Positions 13,606-24,859 of a stretch of DNA of 26,675 bases are shown in pieces. Each line of letters begins with the position of its first letter. Within the stretch, counting starts at the first letter, position 1. Location of the stretch: positions 1 to 26,675 of IMG/VR virus record IMGVR_UViG_3300022602_000352. One strand, given 5' to 3'. This DNA is from a virus. The notes beneath the pieces were generated by a model, which was given only the letters and a program-made list of their open reading frames with translations, was not told the DNA's origin and searched no databases. The position numbers were made by a program, and so were the translations under genes.

Positions 13606-14424
13606 ATGAGAATACTAGTAACAGGGCATGAGGGATTTATAGGAAAGAATATGCTAGCCTGGCTCAATCAAGAGGAAGGCTGGCATATTGATGGATACGA
13701 ATGGCATCCAACAGAACGTCCAGATGTCAGTGGATATGATTGGGTAATACACTTAGGTGCTATTGCTGACATGACATACACTGATGTAGATCAAATCTTA
13801 AAACAGAACTTTGAGTTTAGCCAATGGCTATTCAACGAATGTAATCTGCACGGTGTTAATTTGCAGTATGCTAGTTCTAGTTCAGTATACGGCGACACCA
13901 AAGACTTTAGTGAAACAGCACATTGCCATCCACAAACTCCTTATGCTTGGAGCAAGTATCTATTTGATCGTTGGTGGCCTCAACAAGATGTACGTATCTA
14001 TGTACAAGGATTTCGTTACTTTAATGTCTACGGCAAATGGATGCACTTGCGTGGCAAACGTTCTAACGCTATTGTTAAATGGCGTGAACAGGCTCGTAAG
14101 GAAGGCAAAATTACTGTATGGGAAAATTCTGAGAACATCTATAGAGATTGGACATGGGTGGGCGATGTTTGCCGACTGCACATAGACTTTATTAAAGGAG
14201 TTTATGGCTCGGGCATTTGGAACTGCGGTGCCGGACTAGCACATAGCTTCTTAGACATTGCAGAAGAAATAGCCGAGCAAGAAGGTGTAGAGCTAGAGTT
14301 TGTACCTGTGCCCGAAGCAGAAAAAACACGTTTTAGACATAGAACTAAAGCAGATCTACGACACTTAAAAGAAACAATAGGCAAACGTAAATGGTTAAAT
14401 GTATTTGAGTTCCTAGCAGAATAA
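13606..14424 (+). CDS. NAD(P)-dependent sugar-nucleotide epimerase, HldD-like
   Basis: The product has 272 residues and an extended short-chain-dehydrogenase fold. MRILVTGHEGFIG (GxxGxxG) binds NAD(P), ASSSSVYG carries the catalytic Ser region, and Tyr113-x3-Lys117 lies in YAWSKYLF. FRYFNVYG and the C-terminal RDWTWVGDV are typical of nucleotide-sugar epimerases. The sequence most resembles ADP-L-glycero-D-mannoheptose 6-epimerase, which makes the heptose of lipopolysaccharide core. A phage copy might alter the host surface or supply sugar for glycosylation. The exact substrate is inference. Confidence 0.8.
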   Translation: MRILVTGHEGFIGKNMLAWLNQEEGWHIDGYEWHPTERPDVSGYDWVIHLGAIADMTYTDVDQILKQNFEFSQWLFNECNLHGVNLQYASSSSVYGDTKDFSETAHCHPQTPYAWSKYLFDRWWPQQDVRIYVQGFRYFNVYGKWMHLRGKRSNAIVKWREQARKEGKITVWENSENIYRDWTWVGDVCRLHIDFIKGVYGSGIWNCGAGLAHSFLDIAEEIAEQEGVELEFVPVPEAEKTRFRHRTKADLRHLKETIGKRKWLNVFEFLAE

Positions 14425-14434: not shown

Positions 14435-15058
14435 ATGAAAACTTCTGAACTATTAAACGAATCTACCCCAACTAAAACACCTCCTAGCAAGCCACGTAAC
14501 TTCGTAGCTAAGAATGCTAAGGGCGGTGGCGCTGGCGCACACAAAGATAAGTCTAAGACTATTCCTCGTAAGGAAAAGCATAAGAAAGCTGAACCTATGT
14601 TTGAGGAACCAGAAGGAGATACTCTTAAAAATAGCCTACATACAATTATCCGTGTAGCAACAGAATTAGACAAACGTTTAGATGTTAACGATCAATTTCC
14701 AGAATGGGTAAGTGAAAAAGTTGGTGCTGTCCGTGAACTAATGGTTGGTGTAATGGATTATGTAATTAGTGCTCAAGAAATGCATGAATCACAACATCCA
14801 GTATGTGGACACTGTGGTCATAGACATGAAGTACAGTTAGACGAGCGAGGCAAGGCTAGTCGTAAATTATGTTTAAGTTCTAAGCCAGACAGTGAACTAG
14901 GTGCTAGCAATTTAGCATCATGCAAGTCACAAGGTCTACGTGCCCGAGAAGGTAATAAATCACACAAATTAGGCAAGAGCCCTAAGAGCCGTGTTAAGAT
15001 GGACGGACATAGAATTAAAGGCGCCAAGTACGGCGGACCACTTCCAGACTGGAGTTAA
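14435..15058 (+). CDS. Probable virion/internal protein with capsid-targeting-like N-terminus
   Basis: The product has 207 residues and begins MKTSELLNES, like the MKxxE(L/I)(L/I)xE tag described under findings. A basic, Gly-rich disordered segment follows (AKGGGAGAHKDKSKT), then a helical block (LKNSLHTIIRVATELDKRL, EWVSEKVGAVRELM, VMDYVISAQEM), a Cys/His pair (CGHCGHRHEV) that could bind zinc, and a basic tail ending GGPLPDW. The alternating basic and folded parts suit a DNA-associated capsid protein. Late-type promoter upstream. Function inferred, not shown. Confidence 0.65.
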   Translation: MKTSELLNESTPTKTPPSKPRNFVAKNAKGGGAGAHKDKSKTIPRKEKHKKAEPMFEEPEGDTLKNSLHTIIRVATELDKRLDVNDQFPEWVSEKVGAVRELMVGVMDYVISAQEMHESQHPVCGHCGHRHEVQLDERGKASRKLCLSSKPDSELGASNLASCKSQGLRAREGNKSHKLGKSPKSRVKMDGHRIKGAKYGGPLPDWS

Positions 15059-15059
15059 T

Positions 15060-15608
15060 GTGCGTGTATTTGAAATCATTAGAGAAGATGCCTTCCAAGA
15101 CTTTTTAGCTAGAGACTTGTCTGACATTGGCGGTGGCAAAGGAATACTTGGCGCACTTACTGGCAATAAAGACGATGCCAGTACTGGTGCAAGTCCTGAT
15201 GCCAGTTCCGGATCCAACACTAAAATTTCTGTAGGTAATACCCCTAATGACTCTGGCGGTATGCCTGTTAATGGAACAGTAACAAGCAAGTTTGGTTGGA
15301 GAATGAGAGGACACCATAATGGCGTAGACATTGCTGTTCCTGTAGGTACTCCAGTAAAGTCTCCACTAAGCGGAGTAGTTAGCAAAACAGGTTCAGATAA
15401 TATGAATGGAAACTTTGTTGCTGTTAAGAATGGCAATGAAGAAAACTTATTTTTACATTTGTCAAAGATTAACGTATCAAATGGACAGCAAGTTAAAAAA
15501 GGTGATGTAATCGGGCTATCTGGTAGTACAGGACATTCAACTGGTCCACATTTACATTGGGAAAAACGTGTCGCAGGCAATGCTGTAGATCCAATGACAA
15601 CCGCGTAA
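15060..15608 (+). CDS. M23-family murein endopeptidase with N-terminal tag
   Basis: GTG 15060 is the start: GGAG ends 5 nt upstream, and the next residues (RVFEIIREDAFQDF) match the neighbour's N-terminus. An upstream frame to 14991 overlaps the previous gene. The 182-residue product has the tag (1-26), a Gly/Ser/Asp linker, and an M23 domain with zinc ligands His86 and Asp90 (HHNGVD) and His166 in PHLHW, plus His133 and His164 for catalysis. M23 enzymes cut peptide cross-links of peptidoglycan. There is no signal peptide, so delivery is probably by the virion. Confidence 0.85.
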   Translation: MRVFEIIREDAFQDFLARDLSDIGGGKGILGALTGNKDDASTGASPDASSGSNTKISVGNTPNDSGGMPVNGTVTSKFGWRMRGHHNGVDIAVPVGTPVKSPLSGVVSKTGSDNMNGNFVAVKNGNEENLFLHLSKINVSNGQQVKKGDVIGLSGSTGHSTGPHLHWEKRVAGNAVDPMTTA

Positions 15609-15614
15609 CTAATT

Positions 15615-16196
15615 ATGAAAATTATAGATATTATTAAAGAAGATGCCTTCCAAGACTTTTTATCCAAAGACTTGTCGGATATTGGAGGCGGTTCTATTTT
15701 AGATAAAATTGCAGGAACAGACGGCAAAGATGATAGCAGTAACAAAACTTCTACTAGTTTTGTAAGCGCCGGCGGAGCAGTTAGTCCTAAAGAAATTAAG
15801 TCATACTTGTTGAGCAGAGGGTTTGATAATAATCAAGCCGCTGGACTAATAGTAAACATTAAATGGGAAAGTCATTTCAAACCAGGTGCGTATGTTAGCA
15901 GTGACAATCATCAAGGACCAAGCGGCGGACTAATGGGGTTTCATGATCCTAAGTCTGATGGACGAGGAAACTTTAGCGACATGGTTGCGTTCTGCGGTGG
16001 CGGCAATGCTTGGCAAACTGACTGGCAAAAACAATTAGACTTTGCATTAGGTAAACAACTTGGACAAAAGTACAAGGCTACTAAATTTAGTAATCCAGGT
16101 GAAGCAGCCGCATGGTGGGTTAAGAATTATGAAAAGCCTGCCAACATATCACAGCAAGCATCTGCCAGAGCTAAGGATGCCGCGCAGTACGCATAA
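15615..16196 (+). CDS. Phage tail-type lysozyme with the same N-terminal tag
   Basis: The product has 193 residues. Residues 1-26 (MKIIDIIKEDAFQDFLSKDL, then SDIGGG) repeat the neighbour's tag. The domain after about residue 56 follows the phage tail lysozyme plan (Phage_lysozyme2 type): SYLLSRGFDNNQAAGLIVNI, a candidate catalytic Glu85 in IKWESHFKPGAY, then GLMGFHDPKSDGRGNFSDM, and AAAWWVKNYEKP near the end. It should cut the glycan strand while the neighbour cuts peptides. The pair is 6 nt apart, without its own promoter. Confidence 0.8.
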   Translation: MKIIDIIKEDAFQDFLSKDLSDIGGGSILDKIAGTDGKDDSSNKTSTSFVSAGGAVSPKEIKSYLLSRGFDNNQAAGLIVNIKWESHFKPGAYVSSDNHQGPSGGLMGFHDPKSDGRGNFSDMVAFCGGGNAWQTDWQKQLDFALGKQLGQKYKATKFSNPGEAAAWWVKNYEKPANISQQASARAKDAAQYA

Positions 16197-16207: not shown

Positions 16208-16756
16208 ATGGAACTAATAGGTAATTTATTAATCGCACCCCCCGCCGTAAAATCTACATTCTGGCACAAATCTGTAATACTACTAACTGAACACCATGGA
16301 CAAGGCAGTGTTGGGCTTGTACTTGGTAGACGCAGTGATCTCACAGTAAAACAATTTGGAGCCCAGTTGGGATTTACTATCAATCAGCCAGGACATCTTT
16401 ATGTAGGCGGTCCTGTTAATAATCAAAGTCTAAGTTTTTTACACACTAACGAATGGGTTAGTAAAAATACTATGCAAATAAACGATAAGTTTAGTGTAAG
16501 TTCTGCAGAAGACATACTACCCAGAATGGCTATTGGTGATGTTCCAATCAAATGGCGATTATTTTTAGGCATGTGCGGTTGGGGAACTGGGCAATTAATG
16601 GGCGAGCTCAAAGGTAAAGCACCCTGGAATCATAACACAAGTTGGTGTACTGCTTCAGCTGATTTGGACTTAGTTTTTGACAATGATGGCAAAGATCAAT
16701 GGTGTCAAGCATTAGATCGTTCCGCTTCGGAATTTGCCCAAAATATACTGGCATAA
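16208..16756 (+). CDS. YqgE/AlgH family protein
   Basis: The product has 182 residues, as usual for the family. The start is MELIGNLLIAPPAVKSTFWH, followed by SVILLTEHHGQGSVGLVLGR and YVGGPVNNQSLSFLHT, which are the family's conserved blocks (L.G.(F/L)L.A.P, F..(S/T)V(I/V).(L/I).EH...G..G(L/I)(V/I).., (Y/F).GGPV). The C-terminal FLGMCGWGTGQLMGELKGKA and APWNHN match as well. Bacterial members (UPF0301) have an unclear regulatory role. A phage copy is unusual and stands between wall hydrolases and an HNH gene. Confidence 0.85.
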   Translation: MELIGNLLIAPPAVKSTFWHKSVILLTEHHGQGSVGLVLGRRSDLTVKQFGAQLGFTINQPGHLYVGGPVNNQSLSFLHTNEWVSKNTMQINDKFSVSSAEDILPRMAIGDVPIKWRLFLGMCGWGTGQLMGELKGKAPWNHNTSWCTASADLDLVFDNDGKDQWCQALDRSASEFAQNILA

Positions 16757-16840: not shown

Positions 16841-17356
16841 ATGGCAGATACTCTGCTACTTAATGCTGACGGCTTGCCAGTAAGCTACATGCCATTAAGC
16901 ACATTAATTTGGGAAGATGCTATCAAGTACATGGTCTTAGATAAGGCTGATGTATTGCTATGGCACGAAAATTGGATTGTTCACTCAGCCAATTGGGAAA
17001 CCCAAGTACCTTCAGTAATGATGCTTCGTGAATATATGAAGCCAAAGGTTACAGTACGATTCAGCCGTCAAAATATCTATTTGCGTGATGGAGGTACTTG
17101 TGCCTACTGCTCAAAGCCTGTTGAACGTAAAGAAGCTACACTAGATCACGTAACTCCAGTTTCAAAGGGTGGTAAGACTACCTGGGAAAATTGTGTAACC
17201 GCGTGTGCTCCATGCAACTCTAACAAGAGTGACGCAACTAAGGGCTGGAAACCAAAATTCAAACCTTACAAGCCTGACTTCTACGAATTAGTAAATAAGC
17301 GTAAGAAGGAAGAATTCAACGTAAGGTTTAAAGAATGGAACCAATTTCTAAATTAA
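16841..17356 (+). CDS. HNH endonuclease
   Basis: The product has 171 residues. The N-terminal half (TLLLNADGLPVSYMPLSTLI … WHENWIVHSANW) is the domain that often precedes HNH in bacteria and phages. The nuclease core has Cys87/Cys90 (CAYC), LDHVTPVSKGG with Asp102-His103, Asn117 in ENCV, and Cys122-x2-Cys125 followed by NSNKSD. Both zinc Cys pairs and the HNH residues are present, so an active DNA nicking or cutting enzyme is expected. In phages such genes act as homing enzymes or help packaging. AGAGG stands before the ATG. Confidence 0.85.
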   Translation: MADTLLLNADGLPVSYMPLSTLIWEDAIKYMVLDKADVLLWHENWIVHSANWETQVPSVMMLREYMKPKVTVRFSRQNIYLRDGGTCAYCSKPVERKEATLDHVTPVSKGGKTTWENCVTACAPCNSNKSDATKGWKPKFKPYKPDFYELVNKRKKEEFNVRFKEWNQFLN

Positions 17357-17763
17357 AAAAAGCAATGTGGATGACTCTAGGCTTTCTATGCCTAGGGTTA
17401 GCCTACATAGGACTAATAACTCCGGGTATTCCTTGGAGTACTCCAACAGTAGGTGCCGCCTATTGTTTTAGCAAAGGCTCTGAACGTATGCACAACTGGA
17501 TCATGAATCATAAGATTTTTGGTCCGTTTCTGCGTGGCTGGGCAGAGAAGCGTGTGTTCCCAGTTAAGGCACGTTGGTTAATGGTCTTGACTATGGACAC
17601 TAGTTTAATTATTATGTGGTTCACTACACATAATTGGAAAGCAGTAGCCGGCACAGCCTTGCTAATGTTCCTAGTATGCGTATGGGCATTACGTTATCCT
17701 AAGAGCGTAGAAGATCACGACTCTCGAATAGCCAAAGGTAAAAAAGTAGGTTGGTTCAAATAA
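17335..17763 (+). CDS. DUF454 (YbaN-like) inner-membrane protein
   Basis: The product has 142 residues and overlaps the HNH gene by 22 nt in another frame. KKAMWMTLGFLCLGLAYIGL then ITPGIPWSTPTVGAAYCFSK is the family start, with GxxxPxLPT-like residues between the first two hydrophobic parts. PFLRGWAEKRVFPVKARW follows, then two more hydrophobic segments and ALRYP. Three to four membrane passes. The function of the family is unknown. In a phage it may alter the host membrane. Confidence 0.8.
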   Translation: MEPISKLKKAMWMTLGFLCLGLAYIGLITPGIPWSTPTVGAAYCFSKGSERMHNWIMNHKIFGPFLRGWAEKRVFPVKARWLMVLTMDTSLIIMWFTTHNWKAVAGTALLMFLVCVWALRYPKSVEDHDSRIAKGKKVGWFK

Positions 17764-18709: not shown

Positions 18710-18750
18710 GTGTCTAGCCCGTCTAGGGTGCGGATTAGGTGGATTACCAT

Positions 18751-20016
18751 ATGAAAACAACAGTACTAGAAGATAAGCTCTTCAAATCGTTTACAGAAAC
18801 ACTGGCTAATATCTGGAAAGATGACTTAATTGCCGAAGCTGGCAAGAGTCTACGCAAATCTAATCCTTGTTGGAAAGGCTATCACCCTGTAGGTACTAAA
18901 AAGAAAGGCGGCAAGACTGTTCCTAACTGTGTGCCCAACGAAGGTGTGGCGGAAGCAACTCCTCGTCACTTTGGTCCCAAAGGTGCTGGCACAGAATTAG
19001 CTAGGCAAATTCGTGCAAACGGTGAGTTAGATCGTAACAAACAACCAAAGCCAACAGGCATTCCTAAAAAGAATGAGTTCAACATTACTGAACCTAAAGC
19101 CAAGATTCAAGTTAAGAAAGACAAAGGTGTGGCGGAAGCTGTTCCGGTTATATCCGGTGGGGTTGATCCTAAAATTCAGTTCTTACAGCCAACAATCCAG
19201 TTTGCCGAAAAACTGGGATATCGAGTAACACTAAATCCACAAGGTCGTGTAGTGGCAAAGTTGGTTAATAAGCAACTGGGTCACACGGTTCATATTGGAA
19301 AGTTTCATCCAAGCGGAAAAGGATTTGAAGTTAGTATGGCGGACAATTTAGACTGGCAAACTAATGCGTGGTCGGCTAAAGAATTAGCACGAGACTTTAA
19401 GGAATGGTATAAACGAGCAGTCAAAGATCAAGATTTCAACAATGGCTACAGCGAAAAACCTCAACTTGAACAACAAGGTGTGGCGGAGGGTGAGTGGAGT
19501 AATGTTATCCATACCACTGATAGGTCTGCTGAAAAGGCTCAGCGTGAACAAGAACATAAAAAGCAAGCTGGCCTTGCCGCAAAGGTTCTTAAAAATCACT
19601 CCCAAGCACTTGACCCTAAAGAAATAGATTTACTAACAAGATATAACCTTCACCATAGAGGCAAACCTGGTGTTAGACTTGACAACTACGATGTTAAACA
19701 AGCACAACAATTGATTCAGAATGTGTTGAGATTTAACGAGCAAGGTGTAGCGGAAGACTGGAACAAAGTTAATCATCACGATCATACAGACGGGCTAAGT
19801 CAAAAAGCTGTTAATGCTTATCGTCATGAGCATCCAGGTAGCAAACTACAAACAGCAGTAACTACTAAACCTAGTAAATTAAAATCAGGCTCAAAAGATG
19901 CTAAACGCCGTAAGAGTTTTTGTGCTCGCATGTCAGGCAACAAAGGTCCTATGAAAGATGAAAAGGGACGCCCAACACCTAAAGCAAAAGCTCTACACAG
20001 ATGGAATTGCGAATGA
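18751..20016 (+). CDS. Modular, probably processed virion protein with GVAE junctions
   Basis: The start was set at ATG 18751 (MKTTVLEDKLF); the frame reaches 18739. The 421-residue product is built of blocks separated by DLIAE|AG (after residue 29), NEGVAE|AT, DKGVAE|AV, QQGVAE|GE and EQGVAE|DW. Block 1 has NPCWKGYHPVGTKKKGGK and NCVPN. Block 3 is a folded domain (FAEKLGYRVTLNPQGRVVAK … GKFHPSGKGFEVSM … ARDFKEWYKRA). Block 4 is helical. The last block is basic and ends SFCARMSGNKGPMKD, then a Lys/Arg tail to HRWNCE. The junctions resemble T4 prohead-protease sites. A packaged, cut protein is the likely nature. Confidence 0.7.
   Translation: MKTTVLEDKLFKSFTETLANIWKDDLIAEAGKSLRKSNPCWKGYHPVGTKKKGGKTVPNCVPNEGVAEATPRHFGPKGAGTELARQIRANGELDRNKQPKPTGIPKKNEFNITEPKAKIQVKKDKGVAEAVPVISGGVDPKIQFLQPTIQFAEKLGYRVTLNPQGRVVAKLVNKQLGHTVHIGKFHPSGKGFEVSMADNLDWQTNAWSAKELARDFKEWYKRAVKDQDFNNGYSEKPQLEQQGVAEGEWSNVIHTTDRSAEKAQREQEHKKQAGLAAKVLKNHSQALDPKEIDLLTRYNLHHRGKPGVRLDNYDVKQAQQLIQNVLRFNEQGVAEDWNKVNHHDHTDGLSQKAVNAYRHEHPGSKLQTAVTTKPSKLKSGSKDAKRRKSFCARMSGNKGPMKDEKGRPTPKAKALHRWNCE
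18941..18956 (+). repeat. GVAE-junction repeat, copy 1
   Basis: AAGGTGTGGCGGAAGC encodes GVAEA. It is identical to copy 2. GCG for Ala is used here although GCT, GCA and GCC dominate around it. Confidence 0.8.
19124..19139 (+). repeat. GVAE-junction repeat, copy 2
   Basis: The same 16 bases as copy 1, 183 bp away. Confidence 0.8.
19475..19490 (+). repeat. GVAE-junction repeat, copy 3
   Basis: AAGGTGTGGCGGAGGG, two bases different, encodes GVAEG. Confidence 0.75.
19742..19757 (+). repeat. GVAE-junction repeat, copy 4
   Basis: AAGGTGTAGCGGAAGA, two bases different, encodes GVAED. Confidence 0.75.
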
Positions 20017-20581: not shown

Positions 20582-20817
20582 TGAGCGATCAATTAATAGC
20601 AGTAGCAGGCAGTGGAGACCAATGGGCCGCAGAACGTGCTCAATATGCACTACAAGTGCATGATGCTGTAGTTAATGGACAAATAAGCAAAGAAGAAGCT
20701 TCTGAAGTATTGCAAGATATGATTAACACACAACAACTGCAAGAACAAGCACAAGCGGATCAAGTCAAAGCCGCTTTGTTCTTTGGTATTACACAGTTAA
20801 TCAGTATGTACGCTTAA
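20581..20817 (+). CDS. Small helical protein, unknown function
   Basis: The product has 78 residues: [37 protein letters not shown], then a more hydrophobic end [14 protein letters not shown]. Its first base overlaps the stop of the lipoprotein gene. The amphipathic helices and terminal hydrophobic segment suggest peripheral membrane association. The last 17 nt overlap the end of the oppositely directed hemA gene. Confidence 0.65.
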
Positions 20818-22003
20818 ACACATCAACTAGGGCTTGTACCAAGTCCTCAATCATACCATCATCATGAAACGGAGTAGGTGCAAAACGTAACCGCTCCGTT
20901 CCCACATCAACTGTTGGAAAATTTATGGGCTGGCAGTAAATATTGTAGTCATTTAGTAATGCATCGCTCATTGCTTTAGCCTTTTTAGCATCACCTACTA
21001 ACACAGGTACAATGTGACTAGTACTGCATTCCATAACAGGAATTCCTGCTACTTTTAATCTATGCTTTAGTTTACGAGCACGATCTTGATGCTTGTCTCT
21101 AACTTCAGGATGATCCTTTAACCATTTAATAGCGGCTAGTGCTCCGCTACAAGTTACAGGACTCATTGATGTTGTAAAAATAAACCCTGCGGCAATTGAA
21201 CGAATAGCATCTGCAACTATAGCATCACATGCTACATATCCGCCTTGTACGCCAAATGCTTTACCTAGTGTTCCATTGATAAAATCTATCTCTGATTCTA
21301 GTCCTAGATCTTCTACTTTTCCGCCACCATGCGGGCCGTACAAGCCTACAGCGTGTACTTCATCTATGTAAGTTATAGCTTTATATTTTTTAGCTAACTT
21401 GCATATTTCTTTAATATGCCCAACATCGCCATCCATTGAGTATACTGATTCAAATACAACGCATGGAGTCTTACCTTGCCCAAAACTAATTTTAAGTTTT
21501 TGTTCTAGATCATCTAAGTCATTATGTTTAAAGATAACTTTATCTGCACCACTATGACTGATACCTACAATAATTGAATTGTGATTATTAGCATCTGAGA
21601 TATATTCTATATTAGGTATAATCTTTTTAAGAGCAATAAGTGTCCATTCGTTGGCCACATAAGCAGAGCTGAATAGCACAGCTCGTTCTTTTTTGTGTAA
21701 AGTAGCAAGCTCGTGTTCTAGAGCTTTGTGATAATGACTAGTACCACCAATATTGCGTGTGCCGCCTGAACCCGATCCTGTATGGTCCAGAGCTGTATGC
21801 ATAGCATCTAGTACAACTTTGTTCTGACCCATACCTAAATAGTCGTTTGAACACCAATTAACAATAGTTTTAATATTGTACGGGCCGTACCAAATGGCAC
21901 TTGGAAACTTGCCTGTTTCGCGCACAATGTCGTTAAAAACACGGTATTTGCCGTTGTCTTTTAGTTCTTGTATAAGTTTTTCAAAAGGTTCTTTGTTTAT
22001 CAT
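20801..22003 (-). CDS. hemA: 5-aminolevulinate synthase
   Basis: The product has 400 residues when read from ATG 22003; the frame extends to 22030. The enzyme joins glycine and succinyl-CoA to 5-aminolevulinate, the first step of heme and tetrapyrrole synthesis in alphaproteobacteria. Family residues are all present: WCSNDYLGM (51-58), [13 protein letters not shown] (76-88, typical of this enzyme and not of KBL or BioF), His142-like region [30 protein letters not shown] with Asp214/His217, and pyridoxal-phosphate Lys248 in NGTLGKAFG. It is full length and apparently intact. It is the only minus-strand gene among plus-strand structural genes. Confidence 0.92.
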
Positions 22004-22010
22004 AGTAACG

Positions 22011-22018
22011 TATTTAAC
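22011..22018 (-). promoter_or_regulatory. Late-promoter-like GTTAAATA before hemA
   Basis: On the minus strand GTTAAATA is followed by CGTTACTATG, giving a start near 22005, 2 nt before the ATG. The 17 bases up to and including the ATG differ at only two positions from those before the gene at 14435. No ribosome site is seen. Confidence 0.5.
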
Positions 22019-22019
22019 G

Positions 22020-22027
22020 TATAAATA
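22020..22027 (+). promoter_or_regulatory. T4-type late promoter TATAAATA
   Basis: A perfect TATAAATA, about 65 bp upstream of the fibre-like gene at 22091, with AAGGAGAAAAT before its ATG. It is arranged back to back with the hemA late-type element. Confidence 0.7.
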
Positions 22028-22090
22028 CACATAGGAAACAACAATGTGGCGTACTAGCGCATGTCATCGAGTACTAGTTAAGGAGAAAAT

Positions 22091-24448: not shown

Positions 24449-24859
24449 ATGAAAGCAAGAGAAATACTAACCGAAAGCCTAAGCAAACAAGACACTTACG
24501 CAATCCTACACGATTTTGTAAAGTTTGCCGCCCGCCATTTAGAACTTAAATCTTTACCAAAGTTTGAATTTGTATTTGATAACAAACGTTCGGTAGAACA
24601 CAAGAGCTTTGGTGGATATATGCCCGGCGCAGAACATATTACTATTACTGTAAAGAATCGCCATATCAATGATGTGTGCCGTACACTAGCACACGAAATG
24701 GTACACTACTCACAAGACTTAAAAGATGAGTTAGAAGATGACGATGCAGGTGCTACTGGTAGCCCACAAGAAAATGAAGCCAATGCCAAAGCGGCTGTCA
24801 TTATGCGTAACTGGGGCAAGCGACATCCAGAGTATTTTGAAAAAGAATCAATAGCATAA
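24449..24859 (+). CDS. Zinc metallopeptidase (HExxH) with tag-like N-terminus
   Basis: The product has 136 residues. It begins MKAREILTESL, the clearest tag with the 14435 gene. After a helix (TYAILHDFVKFAARHLEL) comes a strand region and TLAHEMVHYSQD, with His82-Glu83-x2-His86 as the zinc site. ENEANAKAA (around Glu110) gives the third ligand in a gluzincin-like arrangement. Small enzymes of this type occur with SprT-like or minimal metalloprotease folds. If packaged, it might act on proteins in the head or in the infected cell. Its substrate is unknown. Confidence 0.8.
   Translation: MKAREILTESLSKQDTYAILHDFVKFAARHLELKSLPKFEFVFDNKRSVEHKSFGGYMPGAEHITITVKNRHINDVCRTLAHEMVHYSQDLKDELEDDDAGATGSPQENEANAKAAVIMRNWGKRHPEYFEKESIA

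Follow-up and report, generated by a model that had tools for sequence, protein, structure and literature searches.

In a virus record of 26,675 bases, hereafter the window (the whole stretch of DNA that was analysed), we have found a gene whose product is divided into modules by four copies of one short DNA repeat. Our reading, to which we give a probability of roughly 0.78, is that this gene is a string of T4-type internal-protein modules separated by predicted prohead-protease cuts, and that the DNA coding for the cut site is at the same time a recombination junction. The repeat keeps a single reading frame, modules are shuffled among phages with breakpoints at the repeat, the peptide that it encodes is under selection for hydrophobic-x-Glu, and its Glu stands in register with the leaders of stand-alone relatives. 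By analogy with T4 we infer that the modules would be cleaved, encapsidated and injected. The simplest account of how they are swapped would be homology-driven (annealing) recombination, rather than the action of a dedicated recombinase.

Layout of the polyprotein gene

The open reading frame spans positions 18739-20016 of the plus strand. Its parts are as follows, a bar within a motif marking the predicted cut.

18751..20016 (+): polyprotein gene, 421 aa from the ATG at 18751
18751..18837 (+): leader, residues 1-29, ending LIAE|, from the sequence
18838..18954 (+): module 1, residues 30-68, SLRKxNPCWKGY...NCVP type, plus GVAE
18941..18955 (+): junction repeat copy 1, exact 15-mer match, GVAE|A
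18955..19137 (+): module 2, residues 69-129, from the sequence
19124..19138 (+): junction repeat copy 2, exact 15-mer match, GVAE|A
19138..19488 (+): module 3, residues 130-246, mobile cassette with a match in locus L109
19475..19489 (+): junction repeat copy 3, 15-mer match with 1 change, GVAE|G
19489..19755 (+): module 4, residues 247-335, from the sequence; weak PHROG 35025 match only
19742..19756 (+): junction repeat copy 4, 15-mer match with 1 change, GVAE|D
19756..20013 (+): module 5, DUF6321, residues 336-421 (PF19846, E=4.5e-17)

The product contains one LIAE|A (residues 26-30, with the Glu codon at 18835-18837) and four GVAE junctions (residues 65-68, 126-129, 243-246 and 332-335), the next residues being A, A, G and D in that order, as an earlier note on this DNA had described. 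That note had envisaged a release of about five pieces; with five cuts the number would be six, one of them the 29-aa leader. Residues 1-29 are read as a putative capsid-targeting propeptide, and the stretch MKTTVLEDKLF...DDLIAE|A has the form of an N-terminal capsid-targeting leader ending in L/I-x-E.

The gene product has DUF6321 at its C-terminus and matches PHROGs 727, 10346 and 4689, which are of unknown function. No family match was obtained for module 2, and for the modules as a whole Pfam, PHROGs and PADLOC returned almost only DUFs or nothing, with none of the known effector domains of the polyvalent-protein class among the matches. PHROG matches of the 'head and packaging' category in related carriers hint weakly at a place in the virion head. 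The AlphaFold model of module 3 has a helix-four strands-helix arrangement; with a mean pLDDT of 61, it is too weak for a fold search.

The repeat and its predicted cut site

The four junctions read AAGGTGTGGCGGAAG with 0, 0, 1 and 1 changes, and the copies are spaced 183, 351 and 267 bases apart, each distance being a multiple of three. The window holds no in-frame copy of this 15-mer beyond the four junctions, and shuffled sequence gave 0.34 matches when as many as three mismatches were allowed. The junction DNA is nearly constant, as had been claimed, although the core measures 15 bp, not 16 bp, and no copy departs from it by more than one change, where two had been stated as the limit; across phages a weaker extended consensus, RAGCAAGGTGTGGCGGAAGGC, brings the repeat with its flanks to about 20 bp. 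Among the exact 15-mers, 176 of 187 lie in an open GVAE frame, and the remaining 11 are isolated chance matches or lie near gene ends.

The choice of codons is equally uniform. With one ascertaining copy removed from every ORF, the spelling GGTGTGGCGGAA accounted for 70 of the 112 GVAE that were left, compared with 0.45% expected from codon use, and in loci retrieved purely by protein similarity the same spelling was found in 18 of 28. Within the carrier ORFs, GTG accounts for 18% of Val codons and GCG for only 7% of Ala codons, which bears out the earlier remark that the GCG of the junctions is disfavoured. A synonymous 17-mer used as a control, which encodes the same peptide with commoner codons, gave 39 matches, each of them single; nearly all lay in unrelated proteins of ordinary kinds, and hardly any at junctions.

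At the protein level, the nonsynonymous/synonymous ratio per opportunity in 547 distinct repeat copies was 1.08 for Gly at P4, 0.37 for Val at P3, 0.48 for Ala at P2 and 0.03 for Glu at P1, and 35 of the 36 changes of the P3 Val led to Met or Leu. As read from these sequences, the substitution pattern is the signature of a hydrophobic-x-Glu site, like the (L/I)-x-E of gp21. LIAE is a perfect fit to the gp21 rule. In GVAE the P3 residue is V, which is a minority variant with respect to the L/I-x-E of T4, and its substitutions keep V/M/L and the Glu. Val likewise occupies P3 in 25 of 217 leaders.

Stand-alone DUF6321 proteins start with MRAYEFINE|DWNKVN, MKINEIINE|DWNKVN or MKIAELIAE|DWNKVN, and other stand-alone relatives of modules with MKAYEFITE|KWSQKYKSS, MIIDDLFE|ASQSCPHCGG or MKVREIISE|NFADG. 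The leader Glu was aligned exactly to the GVAE Glu in 18 of 40 distinct pairs, and since the two stand in the same register, the internal junction appears to replace the leader cut site of the stand-alone modules. A strict leader pattern was present in 50 of 141 repeat-bearing genes, and in 167 of the 1593 remaining genes on those contigs; some repeat carriers have no recognisable leader. In about 12 carriers (including L038, L065, L066, L344 and L363), the sequence E|xTTAGSVATVxxP follows the leader near the N-terminus, and it resembles a stretch of the capsid protein of the same group past its likely cut site, E|NATAGATxAGNVATLNRVILP.

A gp23-type capsid gene occurs in 9 of the 31 long repeat-bearing contigs, adjoined by a portal gene, a scaffold gene and a gp21-type protease gene (Peptidase_S77, E=7e-27), and the S77/gp21 protease profile matches 15 of 40 long contigs, nearly all of them repeat-bearing. 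The capsid precursors have a likely LxE|(N/S) site, in which P3 is Leu and not Val. In many repeat-bearing contigs, many of which may be fragments, neither gp21 nor gp23 was detected, and the 26.7-kb window itself holds no gp21-type protease gene. A 265-kb relative (G020; 73% identity in the neighbouring structural protein) has the leader of the window and the repeat, with neither a gp21 nor a gp23 gene detected, and a 194-kb relative (G046; 68% identity in the neighbouring structural protein) has both the gp23 and gp21 genes and no repeat. Taken together, the hydrophobic-x-Glu pattern, the register of the leaders and the gp21-type protease of many contigs argue for the proposal, made in the earlier note, that the junctions are probable prohead-protease sites.

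Among cultured phages, the nearest capsid proteins belong to the jumbo phages PA5oct, Phosso and Vibrio phage 2.275.O, and these three phages are without the repeat. Homing-endonuclease-like genes lie directly downstream of the capsid gene in several of the large T4-like phages that were analysed (L136, L140, L141 and L143), and an annotated Hef-like gene has the same position in PA5oct.

Module exchange and its possible causes

A scan of viral contigs for the exact 15-mer gave at least 120 stretches with at least 185 copies, at least 37 of these stretches having several; a single gene often has more than one copy, and the frame is nearly always that of GVAE. Scaling from a 23-mer version, which is found in 75 stretches of the full viral collection compared with 9 among the 120 listed 15-mer stretches, we estimate that the 15-mer is present in very roughly 1,000 viral contig stretches. 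The 31 long contigs hold about 125 repeats at up to 1 mismatch, and a reversed control gave 1. The cultured cyanophages searched are without the repeat; two cyanophage proteins carry similar modules after ...NE|. An origin as a cellular element was considered and rejected, since an 18-mer gave only 26 matches in 257 Gb of cellular genomes, all single, at a chance-like level, mostly in GC-rich DNA and in unrelated contexts.

Flank families were built from 494 distinct junctions, for which 40 aa to the left and 40 aa to the right were taken. The repeat links 343 left and 336 right families, and this makes the 15-mer a simple bait for new internal proteins. Almost every recurring family changes partners: two or more right partners were seen with 81 of the 84 left families, and two or more left partners with 83 of the 85 right families. 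Between loci with one common side, DNA identity falls at the repeat from about 70% to about 25-30%, and third codon positions are 84-100% identical in the repeat versus about 50-60% in the shared modules.

Breakpoints were taken from a blastn comparison among 251 carrier ORFs, and those internal match ends were counted that fell, in both sequences, on the repeat. They made up 124 of 161 at 95% identity or more (about 11 expected), 75 of 136 at 90-95% and 133 of 866 at 75-80%, against an expectation of about 5-7%, some of the counts not being independent because of near-duplicate contigs. In 51 pairs at 90% identity or more, the match was bounded by repeats at both ends. A 513-bp module is 100% identical in L094 and L365, where it has different neighbours, a 172-bp module is identical in L328 and L358, and one module is present twice in the single genome L111 at 99.4% identity. 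The window takes part in this traffic: the type of module 1 has four other partners (in L017, L046, L083 and L094), and the window's leader also stands upstream of different modules in L083. Module 3, for which 14 loci were retrieved by protein alone, has a 367-bp repeat-bounded match in L109 (94% identity, unrelated neighbours), and in two further contigs its end is 100% identical and different modules follow the repeat. The same short repeat thus stands between different blocks of related phages on a large scale, and unrelated DNA at the junctions of related phages was not seen. Partner swapping, the drop in identity and the breakpoints at the repeat all speak for the earlier suggestion of a recombination point.

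We propose that the N-terminal leader ending in LIAE would bring the chain into the core of the prohead, where a gp21-type prohead protease would cut it at LIAE and at every GVAE, each time after the Glu. These cuts would free separate small proteins, which would be packaged and probably injected with the DNA. Since it is the only sequence common to otherwise unrelated modules, the repeat could provide the homology at which crossovers gain, lose or replace entire modules without a shift of frame, both inside one phage and from phage to phage. An intact cut site would be rebuilt every time, selection would keep the sites cleavable, and the codon-level uniformity of the repeat would follow from the copying of an intact repeat in each successful exchange.

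Could the exchange be the work of an enzyme? A dedicated site-specific recombinase or a free-standing homing endonuclease might recognise the 15-mer, as integrases do with integron attC. Such an enzyme would suit the conservation of one exact 15-mer over about 1,000 contig stretches, the homing-endonuclease-like genes near several capsid genes, and the GIY-YIG-like and HNH genes carried by the window. However, homology alone is enough to account for crossovers at the sole shared sequence, and we consider a dedicated enzyme unlikely. If it were true, these phages would hold, within individual genes, an integron-like store of injected proteins, with a recombination site that simultaneously codes for a protease site. 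It is quite unlikely, in our opinion, that the repeat is a selfish or mobile DNA element, comparable to the Rickettsia palindromic elements, which is tolerated as an in-frame linker and has nothing to do with a protease. Extreme conservation at synonymous sites and wide spread could be expected of such an element, but there is no population of intergenic or out-of-frame copies, the Glu is almost fixed while P2 and P4 vary and P3 goes nearly exclusively to M/L, and the GVAE Glu coincides with leader cut sites.

The strong constraint on the protein and the ancestry common to many modules would also agree with genuine prohead-protease sites whose DNA is alike through recent common descent or duplication, with no role in recombination. 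This appears very unlikely, given that modules alike on one side differ completely on the other, that third positions are so much more conserved in the repeat than in the shared modules, and that very recent exchanges break at the repeat. Finally, every repeat-bearing contig found is a metagenome assembly, and assemblers might have fused unrelated modules at a short repeat. The k-mers generally used in final metagenome assembly are longer than the 15-23 bp of the repeat, hundreds of contigs have frames that run on open through the junctions, modules that recur at 58-94% identity have different partners, and the cut-site codons are under selection; an artefact of this kind is extremely unlikely.

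Known systems and other genes of the window

In phage T4, gp21 cuts after L/I-X-E, leaders target the internal proteins to the head, and replacement of the Glu of the IPIII leader by Asp inhibits processing (PMC9026906); IPI-IPIII and Alt have a capsid-targeting sequence cut by gp21 (PMC9026906, PMC3012670). T4 IP1-IP3 have anti-restriction roles and block host restriction enzymes (PMC12373910), and by analogy similar anti-restriction or anti-defence roles are suggested for the modules. The proteins described here share with the T4 internal proteins a leader of the form M..xIxE|, a cut after hydrophobic-x-Glu (predicted in our case), and a large set of unrelated small proteins in T4-type phages; T4 encodes gp21, and a homologue is encoded in many of the repeat-bearing contigs. 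The leader has 29 residues here and 10-19 in T4 (PMC9026906). Whereas T4 has one gene per internal protein and one leader cut, the modules described here are fused and their internal sites are encoded by the repeat. According to what Repoila et al. reportedly found in 1994, T-even internal-protein loci swap cassettes of encapsidated proteins via short flanking homologies. In those loci the homologies flank whole genes; in our case the homology is intragenic and is itself the code of the protease site.

The polyvalent proteins are multidomain phage proteins that have been likened to viral polyproteins and for which a possible recombination of cassettes has been suggested; they are released by embedded peptidase domains, and the portions of that work available to us report neither an inter-domain repeat nor prohead-protease sites (Iyer et al. 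2017, PMC5512222). The modules described here match none of the tested well-known polyvalent-protein domains. The adhesin modules of T4-like gp38 exchange protein segments by crossover at short stretches of repeated coding DNA. Similarly, in the domain movement of Type I HsdS, crossover at short repeated coding DNA swaps segments (PMC3077401). The gp38 and HsdS proteins stay whole, whereas the repeat described here also encodes a probable cut site. It is already known that T4 internal proteins are encapsidated and that their genes are shuffled; the new element is a fused, predicted protease-cut string of modules joined by one intragenic DNA repeat, which we did not find in the literature searched, where GVAEG in phage and DUF6321 also gave nothing. 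If our proposal is true, phages would build and quickly re-arm their head-packaged, probably injected proteins via exchangeable strings of modules, and one short sequence is both protease cut site and crossover point.

Four further genes of the window start with or contain T4-like leaders (14435-15058, 14991-15608, 15615-16196 and 24449-24859, all on the plus strand). These leaders are MKTSELLNE|S; (V)RVFEIIRE|D, followed by an M23 peptidase; MKIIDIIKE|D, followed by a phage tail lysozyme; and MKAREILTE|S, followed by a zinc-peptidase-like protein. The two lysis-type genes among these four have the start 'E|DAFQDFL.(K/R)DLSDIGGG' in common. The window also contains genes of cellular type at 13606-14424, 16208-16756 and 17335-17763 (plus strand), all under the NCBI family cut-offs, namely a heptose-epimerase-like SDR, a YqgE/AlgH-like protein and a DUF454 (YbaN-like) membrane protein. 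The HNH protein encoded at 16841-17356 (plus strand), which weakly resembles IscB and Cas9d in their HNH portion, is probably a stand-alone endonuclease. At 20801-22030 on the minus strand lies a phage-borne gene for 5-aminolevulinate synthase, of the haem/tetrapyrrole pathway, whose match to TIGR01821 (E=1e-167) is well above the cut-off.
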